A stretch of DNA of 41,602 nucleotides. It comes from a virus. Positions within the stretch are counted from its first letter, which is position 1. Each line of letters opens with the position of its first letter. The notes under the pieces are model-generated. The model ran no database searches. It saw only the letters and a program-made list of their open reading frames with translations, and was not told where the DNA came from. The translations under genes and the position numbers were made by a program. Positions 29,868 through 41,602 of this stretch are shown one piece after another. The stretch covers positions 1 to 41,602 of IMG/VR virus record IMGVR_UViG_3300020159_003031. One strand, written 5' to 3'.

Positions 29868-30869
29868 ATGTTTGAGTATTTTTATCACGAAATTCTAAGA
29901 AGAACTGTTATTTCTTTCGGTTCTTTATTTAATGAAATAAGTATTAAGCACACTAACAGCAGTGGTGCAGTTACTAACGTCATTAAAGTTCCACTTGCAT
30001 ATGGTCCAACACAAAAGTTTCTTGCAAGATTAGAGCAATCACCCGACTTAAATAAACCAGTTCAAATGACATTACCAAGAATGTCATTTGAGTTTACTGG
30101 GTTAAATTATGATCCATCAAGAAAATCAACAACTACTCAAACATTCACTGCAAAGTCAACAGAAGACGGAACGGAAACCAAAAAAACATATCTTCCGGTC
30201 CCATATAATATGCAATTCGAACTTAGCATTATGTCTAAGTTAAATGATGATGCTTTGCAAATCATCGAACAAATTTTACCTTACTTTCAACCAGCATATA
30301 CAATGAGTATTGAATTGGTTGACATTATTAATGAAAAGAGAGATATACCGATAATTCTCGAAAACATTACTATGCAAGATGATTATGAAGGTAACTTCAC
30401 AACGAGAAGAGTATTAATTTATACATTAAGATTCACCGCGAAAACATATCTTTTCGGCCCAGTTTCTTCTGCAACGAAAGATATTATCAAAAAGACTACT
30501 GTTGGATATATTGCTGGAGATACTACAAATACTCCATCCAGAGAAATTGTATATTCAGCAGAACCAAGAGCTATCAAAAACTATACAGGTACTATAGTTA
30601 CAAATCTAACTAAAGATATTAATACTGAAGATATACTCATCACAGTAAATAATGCAAGTTCTATTTCTACTAATACATACTTAGATCTTGAAGGTGAGGA
30701 GGTATACGTAAGGTCTAAGGCAGGTAATGTTCTCACCGTAGATAGGGGACGAGATGATACGGCGATAACTTCGCACTTGGCAGGATCTCCAGTCAAATCT
30801 ATTACAACTACGGATAATACATTAATTGAAGATGGCGATGATTTTGGATTCAGTGGCAGTAACTTATGA
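29868..30869 (+). CDS. gp15: Tail terminator / sheath stabiliser gp15
   Basis: This is a homologue of T4 gp15, the hexameric ring that ends the tail tube and sheath and joins the tail to the neck. The start MFEYFYHEILRRTVISFGSL is close to T4 MFGYFYNSSFRRYATLMGDL. The motif QIIEQILPYFQPAYTMSIEL (about residues 128-147) matches T4 QIVEQILPYFQPHF, and RDIPIILENITMQDDYEGNF follows as in the family. The product has 333 aa against 272 in T4. The extra C-terminal part (about 230-333) contains LDLEGEEVYVRSKAGNVLTV followed by DRGRDDTAITSHLAGSPV. This is a small beta module that also occurs in the gp7-type protein. The stop overlaps the gp16 ATG (ATGA), so the two are coupled. Confidence 0.92.
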   Translation: MFEYFYHEILRRTVISFGSLFNEISIKHTNSSGAVTNVIKVPLAYGPTQKFLARLEQSPDLNKPVQMTLPRMSFEFTGLNYDPSRKSTTTQTFTAKSTEDGTETKKTYLPVPYNMQFELSIMSKLNDDALQIIEQILPYFQPAYTMSIELVDIINEKRDIPIILENITMQDDYEGNFTTRRVLIYTLRFTAKTYLFGPVSSATKDIIKKTTVGYIAGDTTNTPSREIVYSAEPRAIKNYTGTIVTNLTKDINTEDILITVNNASSISTNTYLDLEGEEVYVRSKAGNVLTVDRGRDDTAITSHLAGSPVKSITTTDNTLIEDGDDFGFSGSNL

Positions 30870-31297
30870 AAATGACAAAGAAATTTGATAGTTTAAACGA
30901 TGCTTTCAATGTTGATGGAGAAATAGTTCCTATTGAGAGCAAGAGCGAAATTCAAAAAATAGAGGCAGTTGCTTCTGCAGTTGATGATATTAAAAAGGAT
31001 TATGATTATACAAGAGGAAATTTATATTCTCTTATAGAAAAAGGACAAGAAGCAATTAATGGTATTCTTGAACTTGCTCAAGAAAGTGAGATGCCTCGTG
31101 CATATGAAGTTGCTGGACAGTTGATTAAAAATGTGGCAGATGCTACAGATAAATTAATGGATCTCCAAAAGAAACTTAAAGATATTGAAGAAGAAAAGCA
31201 AAGAGGACCAACAACAGTTAATAATGCACTTTTTGTTGGGTCAACTGCAGATTTGGCAAAATTTTTAAAGCAACAAAATCAAGATAGTTTGGAATAA
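30866..31297 (+). CDS. gp16: Terminase small subunit gp16
   Basis: The 143-aa product is predicted to be mostly alpha-helical, as expected for T4 gp16 (164 aa). gp16 forms a ring, recognises DNA and regulates the gp17 packaging motor. The central region LIEKGQEAINGILELAQESE, MPRAYEVAGQLIKNVADATD and KLMDLQKKLKDIEEEKQRGP (about residues 51-112) is the conserved coiled-coil oligomerisation core of the family. The C-terminus NNALFVGSTADLAKFLK (about 117-133) is also typical. The start overlaps the gp15 stop (ATGA). A second ATG two codons later (30872) is an equally possible start. gp17 normally follows directly, but here a 570-residue gene is inserted between them. Confidence 0.9.
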   Translation: MKMTKKFDSLNDAFNVDGEIVPIESKSEIQKIEAVASAVDDIKKDYDYTRGNLYSLIEKGQEAINGILELAQESEMPRAYEVAGQLIKNVADATDKLMDLQKKLKDIEEEKQRGPTTVNNALFVGSTADLAKFLKQQNQDSLE

Positions 31298-31303
31298 TAA
31301 ATA
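31296..31303 (+). promoter_or_regulatory. Candidate late promoter (AATAAATA) before the mosaic gene
   Basis: AATAAATA overlaps the gp16 stop codon and lies 22 bases before the ATG of the mosaic gene. A Shine-Dalgarno-like AAAAGG follows it. The inserted gene therefore has its own late promoter. Confidence 0.5.
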
Positions 31304-31325: not shown

Positions 31326-33038
31326 ATGTCAAAATTGAAGTCTCATAAAACAGTTGAGCAGATTGCAAAGAAGCATCGTCTTGATGTTTCTTTCATACAG
31401 AAGCAACTTGATATGGGAGAACCTATTGAGCATGAGCATACAAAAGATCATGAACTTGCAATGGATATCGCCCTCCAGCATTTGGATGAAATTCCAGATT
31501 ATTATACTCGTTTGAAGAAGATGGAAGCGGATGCTAAAAAGCATCATAAAAAGTTTAAAGATGTGAAAGAAGAATCTAAATCTGGAGATGAAGGTTTACG
31601 CGATTGGTTTGGTAAATCAAAATCATCCGATGGTAAAGATGGATGGGTTCAACTTGGCGGAAAATGGGCAGGCAAACCATGCGCTCGCCAACCGGGACAA
31701 ACTTCTACTCCAAAATGCGGAAGTTCCAAAATGAAGAGAGAACTAAGTTCTAAAGAGGAAGAAGCAGCAAGACGTAGAAAAAATATTCAAGATCCAAATC
31801 AACCACAAAAAACTAGTGGAGCAAAACCAACCAACGTTAGAACTGAAGAGATGGACTTACAAGAAGTAAAAGACAAACCAAGCAAAGGTAGTGGTAAAAA
31901 AGACGCTTGTTACCAAAAAGTAAAGTCTAGATATGACGTATGGCCAAGTGCATATGCTTCTGGAGCACTAGTAAAGTGTCGTAAAGTTGGTGCTGCAAAT
32001 TGGGGAACAAAAACGGAGGCAACAATGCAAGAAGAAGAAAGATACTGTCCACTTTGTGACAAAAGAGAGTCAAGATCTCAGTGCTCCTATGGCGGGAAGG
32101 CATGGGATAAAGTTTCAATTAAAGATCACGAATATTCGATGGCAAGATCGGAATTGAAAACTATCACAAATGCAGTAAAAAGACTTCAGGCAAAAGTTGG
32201 TAGAGGTGAAGGAGATCTCGAAGCGTGGGTTCAATCCAAGATTACTAAAGCAGCGGATTATATTGACACTGCGGCAGATTATGTTGATAGTGGGGAAATG
32301 GAAGAAGCATGTTGGTCTGGATATAAGCAAGTTGGGATGAAAAAGAAAGGTAAAAAAATGGTTCCAAATTGTGTCCCAACATCGGAAGAAACAATTGAAG
32401 ATTTGAATGGAAATACTTTTGCTGAGGTTATTGACCTGATACAACCAGAACCAATTAAAGGATTCAAATCTCAAGTTAAAGAAGCAACAAGACTTCAAGC
32501 ACAGACGGGAAATGTGATTGCAGTAACTCTTTCTTGGAGAGCAAAGTATTACTCACTTAAGATGTTTTTCCCACAAACAAAACTTCCAACTCGTAAGGAA
32601 ATTAATGATGAGCTGCAAAAAGTTTATCCGGGATGCAACGTTCTTTATCATTCAGTATCAGAAATTCAACCAGGGCAACCGTTAATTCAACTATTTGGTC
32701 CACAGGGTGGAAGTTCTGCAAAACCAGGTCCAAGCAAAAATTATGTAAAAACTATGGGGGAAGAAGTTGAAATTGAGGAAGACTGGCAGAAAGTTAATCG
32801 TCAAGATAAAACAGCAGGATTAAGTTCTGCTGCAGTCAAGGCATATCGCAGAGAAAATCCAGGTTCAAAACTTCAAACTGCAGTTACTGAAAAAAATCCA
32901 GAAGGTAAAAGAGCAGACAGACGTAAATCATTTTGTCGCCGTATGTCTGGAATGAAGAAAAGATTAACTTCAGCAGAAACTGCAAGAGATCCAGATAGCA
33001 ACATTAACAAAGCACTCCGTCGTTGGAATTGTAACTAA
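31326..33038 (+). CDS. Mosaic cysteine/lysine-rich protein between gp16 and gp17
   Basis: The 570-aa product is a string of short modules. (1) Residues 1-75, helical, KTVEQIAKKHRLDVSFIQKQ then HDHELAMDIALQHLDE-type text, like DUF5661. (2) 90-140, GLRDWFGKSKSSDGKDGWVQ with LGGKWAGKPCARQPGQ...PKCGS. (3) 193-228, DACYQKVKSRYDVWPSAYAS with GALVKCRK. (4) 241-253, CPLC...C, a partial zinc-binding pattern. (5) 329-350, CWSGYKQVGMKKKGKKMVPN-CVP. (6) about 376-475, an alpha/beta segment with LSWRAKYYSLKMFFPQTKLP. (7) 498-569, GLSSAAVKAYRRENPGSKLQ ... RRKSFCRRMSGMKKRLTSAE ... LRRWNC, like DUF6321. I recall modules 2, 3 and 7 from marine phages and large algal viruses, without known function. The charge is strongly basic in places, which suggests contact with nucleic acid. 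Its place in the packaging operon suggests a head or packaging role. Domain names are from memory and need a profile search. Confidence 0.7.
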   Translation: MSKLKSHKTVEQIAKKHRLDVSFIQKQLDMGEPIEHEHTKDHELAMDIALQHLDEIPDYYTRLKKMEADAKKHHKKFKDVKEESKSGDEGLRDWFGKSKSSDGKDGWVQLGGKWAGKPCARQPGQTSTPKCGSSKMKRELSSKEEEAARRRKNIQDPNQPQKTSGAKPTNVRTEEMDLQEVKDKPSKGSGKKDACYQKVKSRYDVWPSAYASGALVKCRKVGAANWGTKTEATMQEEERYCPLCDKRESRSQCSYGGKAWDKVSIKDHEYSMARSELKTITNAVKRLQAKVGRGEGDLEAWVQSKITKAADYIDTAADYVDSGEMEEACWSGYKQVGMKKKGKKMVPNCVPTSEETIEDLNGNTFAEVIDLIQPEPIKGFKSQVKEATRLQAQTGNVIAVTLSWRAKYYSLKMFFPQTKLPTRKEINDELQKVYPGCNVLYHSVSEIQPGQPLIQLFGPQGGSSAKPGPSKNYVKTMGEEVEIEEDWQKVNRQDKTAGLSSAAVKAYRRENPGSKLQTAVTEKNPEGKRADRRKSFCRRMSGMKKRLTSAETARDPDSNINKALRRWNCN

Positions 33039-33053
33039 TAGTAGGTTTTTATT

Positions 33054-34700
33054 ATGTCAAATGATGTTTATCTTGGTAATCCTCTTCTAAAAAAAGCAAA
33101 TACACCTATTGAATTTACTCAAGAACAAATTCTTGAGTTTGTTAAATGCAAAGATGATCCAGTTTATTTTGCAAATAATTATGTAAAGATCGTAACGCTG
33201 GATCATGGTCTACAAACTTTTAAACCATATCATTTCCAAGAGAAGTTAATTAACAACTTCCACAATAATAGATTTAATATCTGTAAGATGCCACGGCAGA
33301 CTGGTAAGTCTACTACTGTGGTATCTTTTTTGCTTCATTATGCGGTTTTTAACGATAATGTAAATATTGGTATCCTTGCAAACAAAGCAGCAACCGCAAG
33401 AGAACTTCTAGACAGATTGCAAACCGCATATGAAAACTTACCAAAGTGGATGCAACAAGGAATCATATCTTGGAACAAAGGTTCTTTGGAATTGGAGAAT
33501 GGAAGTAAAATCTTGGCTGCTTCTACTTCTGCTTCTGCGGTTCGTGGTATGTCATTCAATATTCTATTTTTGGACGAATTTGCATTCGTTCCAAATCATA
33601 TTGCCGATTCATTCTTTGCGTCAGTTTATCCAACAATTACTTCAGGTAAACAAACCAAAGTTATAATCGTTTCTACGCCACATGGTATGAATCATTTCTA
33701 CCGAATGTGGCACGACGCAGAGAAAGGTAAAAATGAGTATGTCTTTACGGATGTCCATTGGAGTGAAGTTCCCGGAAGAGATGAGGAATGGAAAAAACAA
33801 ACTATTGCAAACACTTCTGATCAACAATTTAAAGTTGAGTTTGAATGTGAATTTTTAGGATCTGTTGATACCCTAATTGCACCATCCAAACTTAGAACGC
33901 TTGTCTACGATGCCCCCAAGACCCGTAGCGCGGGTCTAGATGTTTATGCGGATCCTGGAGAGAATCGCGATTATCTCATCACTGTAGACGTTGCTAGAGG
34001 CGTAGGAAACGATTACTCAGCATTCGCAGTTGTAGATATAACAGAATTTCCACATAAGGTTGTTGCGAAGTATAGAAATAATGAAATTAAACCAATGCTT
34101 TTTCCAAGCATTATTCACGAAACTGCAACAGCTTATAATAGTGCATATATTTTGTGCGAAGTAAATGATGTGGGAGATCAAGTAGCAAGTATCATACAAT
34201 ACGATTTAGAATACAGTAATCTTTTAATGTGTTCTATGAGGGGTAGGGCAGGACAAATTGTTGGTCAAGGATTTTCGGGAAAGAAAACTCAACTTGGAGT
34301 TAAGATGTCCAAAACTGTCAAAAAAGTTGGATGTCTAAATCTAAAGACAATGATTGAAGAAAGTAAATTGCTTTTGAATGATTATGAGATTATCAGCGAA
34401 CTTACGACTTTTATCCAAAAACATAACTCATTTGAAGCGGAAGAAGGATGTAATGATGACCTAGCAATGTGCCTCGTAATATACGCATGGTTGGTTGCTC
34501 AAGATTATTTTAAAGAACTTACTGACCAAGATGTTAGAAAAAGATTATATGAAGAGCAAAAAAATCAAATTGAGCAGGATATGGCACCCTTTGGGTTTGT
34601 TTCGGATGGTTTAGACAATAGTAGTTTTGTAGATGTTGATGGAGATAGATGGTATACAGATGAATATGGAGATCGTGCTTATATGTGGGAATATATGTAA
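33054..34700 (+). CDS. gp17: Terminase large subunit gp17
   Basis: This is the packaging ATPase and headful nuclease that docks on portal gp20. The product has 548 aa (T4 610). Walker A is MPRQTGKST at residues 79-87, and Walker B is ILFLDEF with D174 and catalytic E175. The C-terminal RNase H-like nuclease has the expected three acidic positions: D312 in ITVDVARGVGNDYSAF, E369 in CEVNDVGDQ and D468/D469 in CNDDLAMCLVIYAWL, matching T4 D401, E458 and D542. ATPase and nuclease domains are therefore both intact. The gene starts 15 bases after the mosaic gene, with only a weak ribosome site (TAGG) and no late-promoter motif of its own in the gap. The stop abuts the ATG of the zinc-ribbon gene. 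Confidence 0.96.
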   Translation: MSNDVYLGNPLLKKANTPIEFTQEQILEFVKCKDDPVYFANNYVKIVTLDHGLQTFKPYHFQEKLINNFHNNRFNICKMPRQTGKSTTVVSFLLHYAVFNDNVNIGILANKAATARELLDRLQTAYENLPKWMQQGIISWNKGSLELENGSKILAASTSASAVRGMSFNILFLDEFAFVPNHIADSFFASVYPTITSGKQTKVIIVSTPHGMNHFYRMWHDAEKGKNEYVFTDVHWSEVPGRDEEWKKQTIANTSDQQFKVEFECEFLGSVDTLIAPSKLRTLVYDAPKTRSAGLDVYADPGENRDYLITVDVARGVGNDYSAFAVVDITEFPHKVVAKYRNNEIKPMLFPSIIHETATAYNSAYILCEVNDVGDQVASIIQYDLEYSNLLMCSMRGRAGQIVGQGFSGKKTQLGVKMSKTVKKVGCLNLKTMIEESKLLLNDYEIISELTTFIQKHNSFEAEEGCNDDLAMCLVIYAWLVAQDYFKELTDQDVRKRLYEEQKNQIEQDMAPFGFVSDGLDNSSFVDVDGDRWYTDEYGDRAYMWEYM

Positions 34701-34931
34701 ATGGATTTAGATAAACAGATAAAACTTGGACATTTGTTATTGGCAGATAGAAGATGTAGAGTCTGTGGAGAGATGAAAAATTTGATAGATGGATTTTATA
34801 GAACAAGAAAAGATCGTGGACCAGTTGCATCTTCATATTCTTATGAATGCAAAGAATGTACAATAAAAAGAATAGTAGAAAGTAAGAAGACTCCATCTCT
34901 ACCCCAAAACTGGGAATATCCTGATTGGTAG
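34701..34931 (+). CDS. Small zinc-ribbon protein, 76 aa
   Basis: The ATG directly follows the gp17 stop with no gap. The product carries two CxxC pairs: CRVC at about residues 20-23 and CKEC at about 51-54. They are separated by GEMKNLIDGFYRTRKDRGPV and a YSYE strand, so a four-cysteine zinc ribbon is likely. The layout (C-x-x-C-G-x-x-K...FY...C-K-x-C...R) resembles the zinc-ribbon part of phage HNH/endonuclease VII-type proteins, but there is no HNH or other catalytic motif, so nuclease activity is not supported. The end, LPQNWEYPDW, is rich in aromatic residues. Close coupling to gp17 suggests a role in packaging or its control; that is inference. Confidence 0.75.
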   Translation: MDLDKQIKLGHLLLADRRCRVCGEMKNLIDGFYRTRKDRGPVASSYSYECKECTIKRIVESKKTPSLPQNWEYPDW

Positions 34932-39583: not shown

Positions 39584-39739
39584 ATGGATGATTTACTGGA
39601 TATGATTGCTACTGATGAGTCTCCCTCTCAGATTAGTGATAAAATTAAAGAACTTTTATTTACAAAGTCTGCTGAAAAAATCGACTCTGTTCGCCCAGAA
39701 GTAGCAGCATCAATGTTTAGTAATGAAGAAACAGAATAA
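39584..39739 (+). CDS. Small helical protein, possible gp67-like prohead core peptide
   Basis: This 51-codon gene runs from ATG 39584 to TAA 39737-39739. The product is MDDLLDMIATDESPSQISDK followed by a helix IKELLFTKSAEKIDSVRPEV and AASMFSNEETE. In T4 the gene right after 20 is 67, which encodes a small acidic scaffold (prohead core) protein cut by gp21. The position, the helical KSAEKIDSVRPEVAASMF stretch and the acidic end are consistent with a shortened gp67 (T4 80 aa), but identity is too low to be sure by eye. It has its own late promoter but no strong Shine-Dalgarno. The gene itself is likely real; the gp67 assignment is tentative. Confidence 0.65.
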   Translation: MDDLLDMIATDESPSQISDKIKELLFTKSAEKIDSVRPEVAASMFSNEETE

Positions 39740-39796: not shown

Positions 39797-41602
39797 GTGA
39801 CACTTAAGAAACCATCAGATCTGTTTTCCAAAAAAGAACCCAACGGAATCTTCAATGCCGTAGAGGGTTCTACGGATATCACGGAAACTTATGATCGTTT
39901 CCGTGATAATCTGGATAGGGTAAATATTTTATCCGAAAAAGTAGAGCAACTCTCTCATCAGTTATCCGAGAAATTAGATAAAACTGATCTTGAGAACGCA
40001 ATGCTTTCTCAGTTGATGGTTCTTGATGAGAACTTTAAGTCACTTCAAAATCAAGTCAAAGGTCTAAACAAAGAAGACCTTAGAGACTTTAGAACAACTG
40101 TCGCAGACCTTACTGAAATCGTTGAAGGTCTCGTAGAAGAAGAATTGCCAAAATATAAAAAACAAGTAACTAGAGGTGAAGTTAATATTGGCGAAAAATT
40201 TAATAACTTAAAAGAAGTTGTTGAAGAGAATATTGTAGGCATTAGAGGAGAAATAGATACTCAAGTCAATAACATTGCAGAAGTTATTGATAATAACTTA
40301 GAGTATTTTAATAATCAACTTCAAGAAACAAAGAGCAAAGTTCAAAATACTTCAGAAACATATCAAAAACTTTCCAAATCTCTAGAAAAGAAAGTTGCTG
40401 AAGAAAATGAGAAGTTAGAAGAATATTCCCAAGTCATCAAGTCTCTTTATGAAGCATTTATAGAACTTGAGACATCACTTCAGGAAGAAACTTCTACACA
40501 ACTTCAAGTAATTAAAGAGAAGTTTGAAACTATTTCTTCCAATGTAAATACTAGAATTGATAGTATTGATGAAGAAGTAGACAATATTAAAGATAAAGTT
40601 TCTTCTGAGATTTCAAATATCAAAGCAGATATTGTTATTAATGAACAACATTTAAAAAATTTTGGTGAGACAATTAAAGAGTATGATATTCATCTAGAAG
40701 AAGTTGATAAGTATCTACAAGAACATCACCAAGAACTAGTCACTCTCAAAGAAGAAGTATTTGCTGAGATTGAACAAATTCCTGTCGGAAATCTTCAAGA
40801 GAACCTTGAGAGACTTGAGAGGAAGATTGATTTCATCAAAGAAACATATTCAAGAATTGAACCAGATGTTGTTGTACAAGAAGTTATCAAAGAAGGACTT
40901 CTGAATGAACCACCATCAACAAAGAATTCTGACCCACTTACACCACTTGACCAAAACTTTGTAACTCTAGACCAACTCCAACAACATTATCGTCTGTTTT
41001 TAAATCGCATTCAACAACAACTCTCCACAATCGGTGGTGGTGGTGAAACACAATTCAGATATCTAGATGATGTTGTAGGACTTGCAACTAATTCAAGTTT
41101 TTATGATGGTAAAGTTCTATCTTGGAATTCAACAACCAATAAAGCAGAATTTGTATTAGTTGGTGATTTGGATGCTGATACTCTAGATACAGTCACAACT
41201 CGTGGAAATACAACCAATAATGGTATTGGAGTTTCGTTTGTAAATCTTCCCGTTGGTTCTGTTATTTCTGGTGCATCTTCAATTACTGCTAATATTGGTA
41301 ACGAAAGTTTGAATGCAGTTCTTGAGTATGGAAATAGTGCAAATTTAAGTATTGGTGACTATGGATTACCTTTTGGTATTACTGGTGTTCCATATGTAGT
41401 TTATGAACTCAATAATGTTCCAACTCCTGCAATTCAAGTTGGTGATATTATTGGTGGTGCTGCAATTCCAGTAGAAAGTGCTATTCTTTATGTTGGTATT
41501 GGTACTTATAATAAAATTCTTATTGCTGATAAAAATTTCCCTGTAGGTGGAGTTCTTCCAGAAGAAGATACTGTACTCACTTTTGCTCGTCCAATTGTGA
41601 AT
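39797..41602 (+). CDS. Long coiled-coil protein with fibre-like C-terminal part (partial)
   Basis: The frame is open from GTG 39797 to the last base (602 codons, no stop), so the gene continues outside the window. The GTG start is supported by AGGG at 39787-39790, 6 bases upstream; the earlier ATG at 39775 stops after ten codons. Residues 1-40 are polar (MTLKKPSDLFSKKEPNGIFN). About 40-390 is long heptad-type helix (LSEKVEQLSHQLSEKLDKTD, VDNIKDKVSSEISNIKADIV). A GGGGE hinge near 412-416 leads to a beta-rich region with RYLDDVVGLATNSSFYDGKV and LSWNSTTNKAEFV, which I know from cyanophage fibre proteins. In T4, gp68 and gp21 stand here. The layout (rod, hinge, beta head) suggests a fibre or whisker, but a scaffold or head-decoration role is possible. 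Function unknown. Confidence 0.75.
   Translation, partial: MTLKKPSDLFSKKEPNGIFNAVEGSTDITETYDRFRDNLDRVNILSEKVEQLSHQLSEKLDKTDLENAMLSQLMVLDENFKSLQNQVKGLNKEDLRDFRTTVADLTEIVEGLVEEELPKYKKQVTRGEVNIGEKFNNLKEVVEENIVGIRGEIDTQVNNIAEVIDNNLEYFNNQLQETKSKVQNTSETYQKLSKSLEKKVAEENEKLEEYSQVIKSLYEAFIELETSLQEETSTQLQVIKEKFETISSNVNTRIDSIDEEVDNIKDKVSSEISNIKADIVINEQHLKNFGETIKEYDIHLEEVDKYLQEHHQELVTLKEEVFAEIEQIPVGNLQENLERLERKIDFIKETYSRIEPDVVVQEVIKEGLLNEPPSTKNSDPLTPLDQNFVTLDQLQQHYRLFLNRIQQQLSTIGGGGETQFRYLDDVVGLATNSSFYDGKVLSWNSTTNKAEFVLVGDLDADTLDTVTTRGNTTNNGIGVSFVNLPVGSVISGASSITANIGNESLNAVLEYGNSANLSIGDYGLPFGITGVPYVVYELNNVPTPAIQVGDIIGGAAIPVESAILYVGIGTYNKILIADKNFPVGGVLPEEDTVLTFARPIVN

Follow-up and report, generated by a model that had tools for sequence, protein, structure and literature searches.

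In phage T4 the two terminase genes, gp16 (TerS) and gp17 (TerL), are adjacent. T4-like cyanophages abound in both oceans and lakes. Proteins enter the T4 prohead by way of a capsid-targeting sequence made up of their first ten residues, of which 4 and 7 serve targeting and 8 and 10 processing by gp21 (PMC9026906), and in the giant phages phiKZ and SPN3US internal or ejection proteins are cleaved behind E as the head matures (PMC9026906). In cyanophages the gp16-gp17 interval is, as a rule, an insertion hot spot (Sullivan 2010, PMC3037559), for which PMC2984593 also cites Millard 2009. The present study examined a gene in this interval, hereafter the mosaic gene, whose family ranks among the 'hypothetical' genes most widely distributed in T4-like cyanophages. 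We propose that its product is probably an internal head protein, expressed late and built of modules, which would correspond in cyanophages to the internal proteins of T4 and be made as a precursor for gp21 to cut.

The window, by which we mean the whole stretch of 41,602 nucleotides that was analysed (IMG/VR record IMGVR_UViG_3300020159_003031), is a contig of an uncultured virus with a T4-like gene order: gp15, gp16, the mosaic gene, gp17, a small endonuclease VII-like gene, gp18, gp19 and gp20. An earlier, sequence-only reading had described a gene with its own late promoter between the terminase genes, and both the gene and the promoter are there (Table 1), as are the three peptides that it quoted from the protein. 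The promoter core ATAAATA occurs 13 times in the window against 25.7 expected by shuffling; 11 of the 13 sites are on the + strand, 9 of these 11 start 24-49 bp upstream of an ORF, and the window scan found none serving as an own promoter of gp16 or of gp17. The late promoter published for S-PM2 is NATAAATA (PMC2984593). Directly 3' of gp20 stands a small, acidic ORF of 51 aa (39584-39739) with its own late promoter (39553). Small prehead-core genes sit at this place in T4-like phages. A long coiled-coil-like open frame of 602 aa also follows gp20 (39797-41602), at the point where this gene order would call for gp21, and is ended by the contig edge. The endonuclease VII-like gene (34701-34931) lies directly 3' of gp17, and T4-GC282, an endonuclease family in a similar place, is mostly without catalytic residues (PMC3037559).

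Table 1. The mosaic gene, its flanks, its modules and its candidate gp21-type sites in window coordinates (a slash marks the candidate cut)
Feature	Position	Strand	Details
gp16 (TerS), 5' flank	30866..31297	+	phrog_445, E 3e-56
Late promoter core ATAAATA	31297..31303	+	29 bp upstream of mosaic gene ATG
Mosaic gene	31326..33038	+	T4-GC119 / phrog_727 family; 570 aa; net charge +26; 12 Cys
M1, residues 7-68	31344..31529	+	Pfam DUF5661, E 3e-13
M2, residues 88-171	31587..31838	+	two Cys; stand-alone relatives are Pfam DUF5872
Candidate gp21 site E180	31863..31865	+	MDLQE/VKDKP, just 5' of M3
M3, residues 189-227	31890..32006	+	DACYxKVKSRYxVWPSAYASGALVKCRK; two Cys
Z, residues 236-262	32031..32111	+	YCPxCxKxExRxxCxYG; three Cys; predicted strand-strand-helix
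H, residues 266-324	32121..32297	+	predicted helical hairpin; no Cys
C, residues 327-352	32304..32381	+	CWxGYKxxGMKKKxxxxVPNC; two Cys
Candidate site E327	within 32304..32381	+	EMEE327/ACW, at start of C
M5, residues 384-454	32475..32687	+	predicted beta-beta-alpha-beta
Candidate site E386	within 32475..32687	+	SQVKE386/ATR, at M5 start
Candidate gp21 site E485	32778..32780	+	VEIEE/DWQ, before M6; E485 and W487 at least 90% conserved
M6, residues 487-569	32784..33032	+	Pfam DUF6321, E 1.9e-13; two Cys; reaches C-terminus
gp17 (TerL), 3' flank	33054..34700	+	

The protein matches phrog_727 at E 5e-115, and tblastn recovered relatives from about 500 phage records, nearly all of them phages of Synechococcus, Prochlorococcus and Pelagibacter; in S-SM2 the gene is SSM2_109 (T4-LIKE GC 119), directly 5' of gp17. 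TerS or TerL stood on the expected side in 315 of 323 relatives, TerS being upstream in 178 of the 203 with at least 3 kb of upstream sequence and TerL downstream in 163 of the 172 with 3 kb downstream, and upstream in none. The sequence-only reading had taken gp16 and gp17 to be normally adjacent and the placement of the gene to be an oddity; adjacency is the rule in T4 but not in the cyanophages with their published hot spot, and because that hot spot is known the location is normal for cyanophages, unlike T4, the gene belonging to a conserved cluster there.

Iterated profiles on 344 loci resolved eight modules (M1, M2, M3, Z, H, C, M5 and M6) where seven, several of them with conserved Cys, had been described; the modular, Cys-bearing character was confirmed. 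Among non-redundant relatives exactly two Cys were found in M2 (56/56), M3 (56/56), C (60/60) and M6 (59/62) and three in Z (28/30), and with counts so fixed the module cysteines are not due to chance. Median net charge is +10 for M2, +7 for M3, +6 for C and +15 for M6, and the linkers are net acidic. The modules are shuffled, with 45 orders among 83 non-redundant relatives and H preceding M3 in 22 pairs and following it in 18; M6 is the terminal module in 76 of the 83 and ends at most one residue from the C-terminus in 75 of 77.

Two modules of the window protein pass the curated Pfam cut-offs, M1 for DUF5661 (50.3 bits; cut-off 27) and M6 for DUF6321 (51.3 bits; cut-off 28.5), and in the same Pfam profile search its M2 had no DUF5872 match. 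Bacterial DUF6321 matches were mostly on MAG contigs that are probably viral, and a partial literature search returned no paper naming DUF6321 or DUF5661. The AlphaFold model of the full protein shows small units in a row, at low confidence (pLDDT 61, pTM 0.30), and with this model a PDB fold search gave no match at E 0.001; a viral fold library returned DUF6321/DUF5872-type phage proteins only, with no significant giant-virus match. The full protein had no match in PDB sequences, and no enzyme family was matched in Pfam, NCBIfam or PDB sequences.

Candidate gp21-type sites, written phi-x-E with phi hydrophobic, lie near several module starts of the window protein (Table 1), and a further candidate is E367. 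Across mosaics, phi-x-E/[GASVD] precedes M5 in 43 of 46 cases, M6 in 53 of 76, M3 in 45 of 69 and M2 in 39 of 67, and is rare before Z (6/34) and H (6/49). The contrast between the M2/M3/M5/M6 and the Z/H boundaries (Fisher 2e-19) is to be read with the residue set after E having been picked after viewing the data, the Z/H internal control using the same set, and with p-values here being overstated because the relatives are not independent. Plain [LI]xE is not enriched in linkers (169 against 172 in the mirror), enrichment appearing only when sites are counted at module boundaries and by the residue that follows E. Cyanophage gp23 has a comparable phi-x-E site near residues 50-58.

The genes beside the mosaic offer a second line of evidence. 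Stand-alone M5 genes mostly start within about 15 bp of the mosaic stop, and 68 of 69 (37 of 38 non-redundant) open with M-K-x-[FYL]4-xx-F7-[hydrophobic]8-x-E10, for example MKSYKQFLSE, a putative leader in exact register with the T4 capsid-targeting sequence. Likewise SCREM1_179 of S-CREM1, 91 aa long and situated between TerS and TerL, begins MKTYNDFITE/VAAWQ and continues with M6 (DUF6321). Within mosaics the full motif stands directly 5' of M6 in 6 of 83 (e.g. KTYSQFMTE/VAAW), which looks like the fusion of an M6 protein that already had its targeting sequence, and all mosaic linkers together hold 7 full targeting motifs against 1.2 after shuffling and 0 in the mirror. All six annotated S-CREM2 genes with a near-N-terminal targeting motif encode virion proteins detected by mass spectrometry (MS) (hypergeometric p 1.3e-4, with 52 of 221 ORFs detected). 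The targeting sequence (residues 4, 7, 8 and 10) is absent from the N-terminus of the window protein and from the MS-detected relatives gp029, ORF137 and ORF160, so the mosaic proteins must be targeted by another route. No paper linking cyanophages to capsid-targeting sequences was among the matches listed in a search of partial literature coverage.

Several carriers of targeting-type starts are virion enzymes. The six S-CREM2 genes include a SAM hydrolase, an APH/ChoK-like kinase and a cytidylyltransferase (L537-L545), and in the same phage a protein annotated as Cas9 nuclease carries the motif at residue 19; the NMNAT of S-SCSM1 also has a T4-type start. A gene of about 140 aa directly 5' of the mosaic (S-SM2 L082:4276-4704, with matching ORFs in L102, L105, L141 and L148) begins in a capsid-targeting-like manner (MKTLKQFLKE, MKSFKQFLSE), and for this reason the gp16-gp17 hot spot may hold several internal-protein genes.

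Published work places relatives of the mosaic protein in virions. By homology, the modules of S-CREM2 are split between ORF137 (M5-M6) and ORF160 (M2 and M3), both found in CsCl-purified virions, by 4 unique peptides for ORF137 and 7 for ORF160 (PMC10665884 Table 3), low numbers from a kind of preparation that also holds non-structural proteins and from a method by which head and tail are not distinguished. The terminase subunits are absent from the same table (PMC10665884). Virions of S-SCSM1 were likewise analysed by MS, with 45 virion proteins detected (PMC9602691), and the relative gp029 is annotated 'virion protein' in its record. In the S-SM2 record the note 'similar to Synechococcus phage S-SM1 protein' accompanies GC119 as well as virion proteins and is lacking on gp16, gp17 and replication genes; the detection in S-SM1 virions that this suggests was not counted, the S-SM1 records saying hypothetical. 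Near a cytidylyltransferase gene, the module-bearing S-CREM2 ORF160 (L536:4843-5736) and S-B64 gp085 (L096:4815-5567) have an N-terminus that copies the gp23 N-arm right after its likely gp21 site (GFTGAAAPEGPVAGYDPLM vs GFTGAAAPGGPNAGFDPVM); this likeness may be why the S-B64 protein is labelled 'major head protein'.

Phages unrelated to these encode M3 and M2 individually, each in a small gene of its own, and in 22 of 36 loci with both, M2 begins right where M3 terminates (0 or -3 bp). At one locus (L484) the pair follows the portal gene, one placed as a scaffold gene would be, and the major head gene, and its M2 scores 61.2 bits against DUF5872. Stand-alone M3 or M6 always had TerL downstream, 0.2-2.1 kb off, in the 15 of 15 cases with TerL recognised nearby, and in these neighbour scans many neighbouring genes were without a family match. 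The T7-like cyanophage P-SCSP1q carries a stand-alone M6 directly after its capsid gene. The shell of the related P-SCSP1u was resolved by cryo-EM as major capsid protein alone (PMC10575957), so the small M6 protein, if packaged, is not an ordered part of the shell. A DUF5872 protein is among those listed for an algal giant virus (PMC12085832); the sequence-only reading had placed some of the modules in such viruses, which is partly supported through the DUF5872 assignment of stand-alone M2 genes. Its further expectations, of a packaged virion protein as opposed to an early enzyme, agree with the late promoter, the relatives in purified virions and the lack of any enzyme-family match, and its idea of processing by gp21 has gained indirect support from conserved boundary sites and the putative targeting sequences of sister genes, the cleavage itself being what we infer.

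Detection of relatives by MS would also suit an uncleaved head or neck structural protein whose modules are short adaptors binding the capsid, the portal or each other, as would the occurrence of H and M2/M3 in the gp23 N-arm-starting proteins ORF160 and gp085. Such a protein agrees poorly, however, with the beads on flexible linkers of the low-confidence prediction (pLDDT 61), modules that change places freely (45 orders among 83) and the cleavage-type sites at their boundaries, and we consider it unlikely. Because tail-fibre genes adjoin the mosaic in S-SM2 and S-SCSM1, a tail- or fibre-associated protein of the hot spot might be envisaged, but the capsid-targeting sequences of sister genes and the capsid genes beside stand-alone modules in other phage types make this very improbable. 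A packaging-cofactor role was among those suggested by the sequence-only reading; taken as that of a non-virion protein working with the terminase, it draws on the TerS-TerL position in most relatives and on the stand-alone M3 and M6 genes just 5' of TerL; yet relatives are in virions, where S-CREM2 has neither terminase subunit among its detected proteins, we found no evidence in support of the role itself, and its probability appears slight indeed.

Under the internal-head-protein reading that we prefer, the mosaic protein would be made alongside the head proteins, and the precursor would enter the prohead with the core, where the gp21 prohead protease would cut after phi-x-E in the linkers 5' of M3, M5 and M6. 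The basic peptides, whose cysteines might form disulfides or bind zinc, would stay behind with the DNA in the head, and their injection is conceivable; foremost among them would be a DUF6321 peptide of 85 residues (486-570, net +13). A more far-reaching version, which we regard as possible but doubtful, is a polyprotein of cyanophages and their relatives, made of interchangeable Cys/Lys modules and encoded beside the terminase, which would be diced by the prohead protease in the head, retained with the DNA and injected as a set whose make-up changes by shuffling, perhaps as part of a host-virus arms race, its modules being separate small genes in unrelated marine phages and in part in algal giant viruses. 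Judged by plain [LI]xE, the polyprotein idea failed against the mirror, and only the boundary-specific tests were positive.

The link to T4 capsid targeting and gp21 gives an abundant unknown gene and its neighbours a testable role, and suggests why NMNAT-like and other enzymes occur in cyanophage virions. A targeting-type start could also be used to predict from sequence the cyanophage proteins that are packaged in heads and reach the host.

Compared with the T4 proteins IPI, IPII, IPIII and Alt, the mosaic family is likewise basic and late, the window protein having a net charge of +26 and a late promoter, and relatives were detected in virions. The T4 proteins combine a targeting sequence with gp21 processing; the cyanophage sister genes match the register of the former, and the module starts carry gp21-type sites. 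The mosaic differs in its many modules per chain, in its Cys-bearing units and in being mostly without the N-terminal targeting sequence, and no similarity was found between the mature parts of the two groups; as its own targeting sequence is missing, we do not place the window protein in the internal-protein class of T4. The E-cleavage of phiKZ and SPN3US internal proteins parallels our proposal from a different class of phage, the likeness lying in the processing. DUF6321, DUF5661 and DUF5872 are domains of unknown function, the first two represented here by M6 and M1. T4-GC119 (Sullivan et al. 2010) / phrog_727 is the same family in the same place in cyanophages, recorded earlier as a hypothetical protein only, without a module map or internal-protein assignment, and its proposed link to the internal proteins is the new element here.
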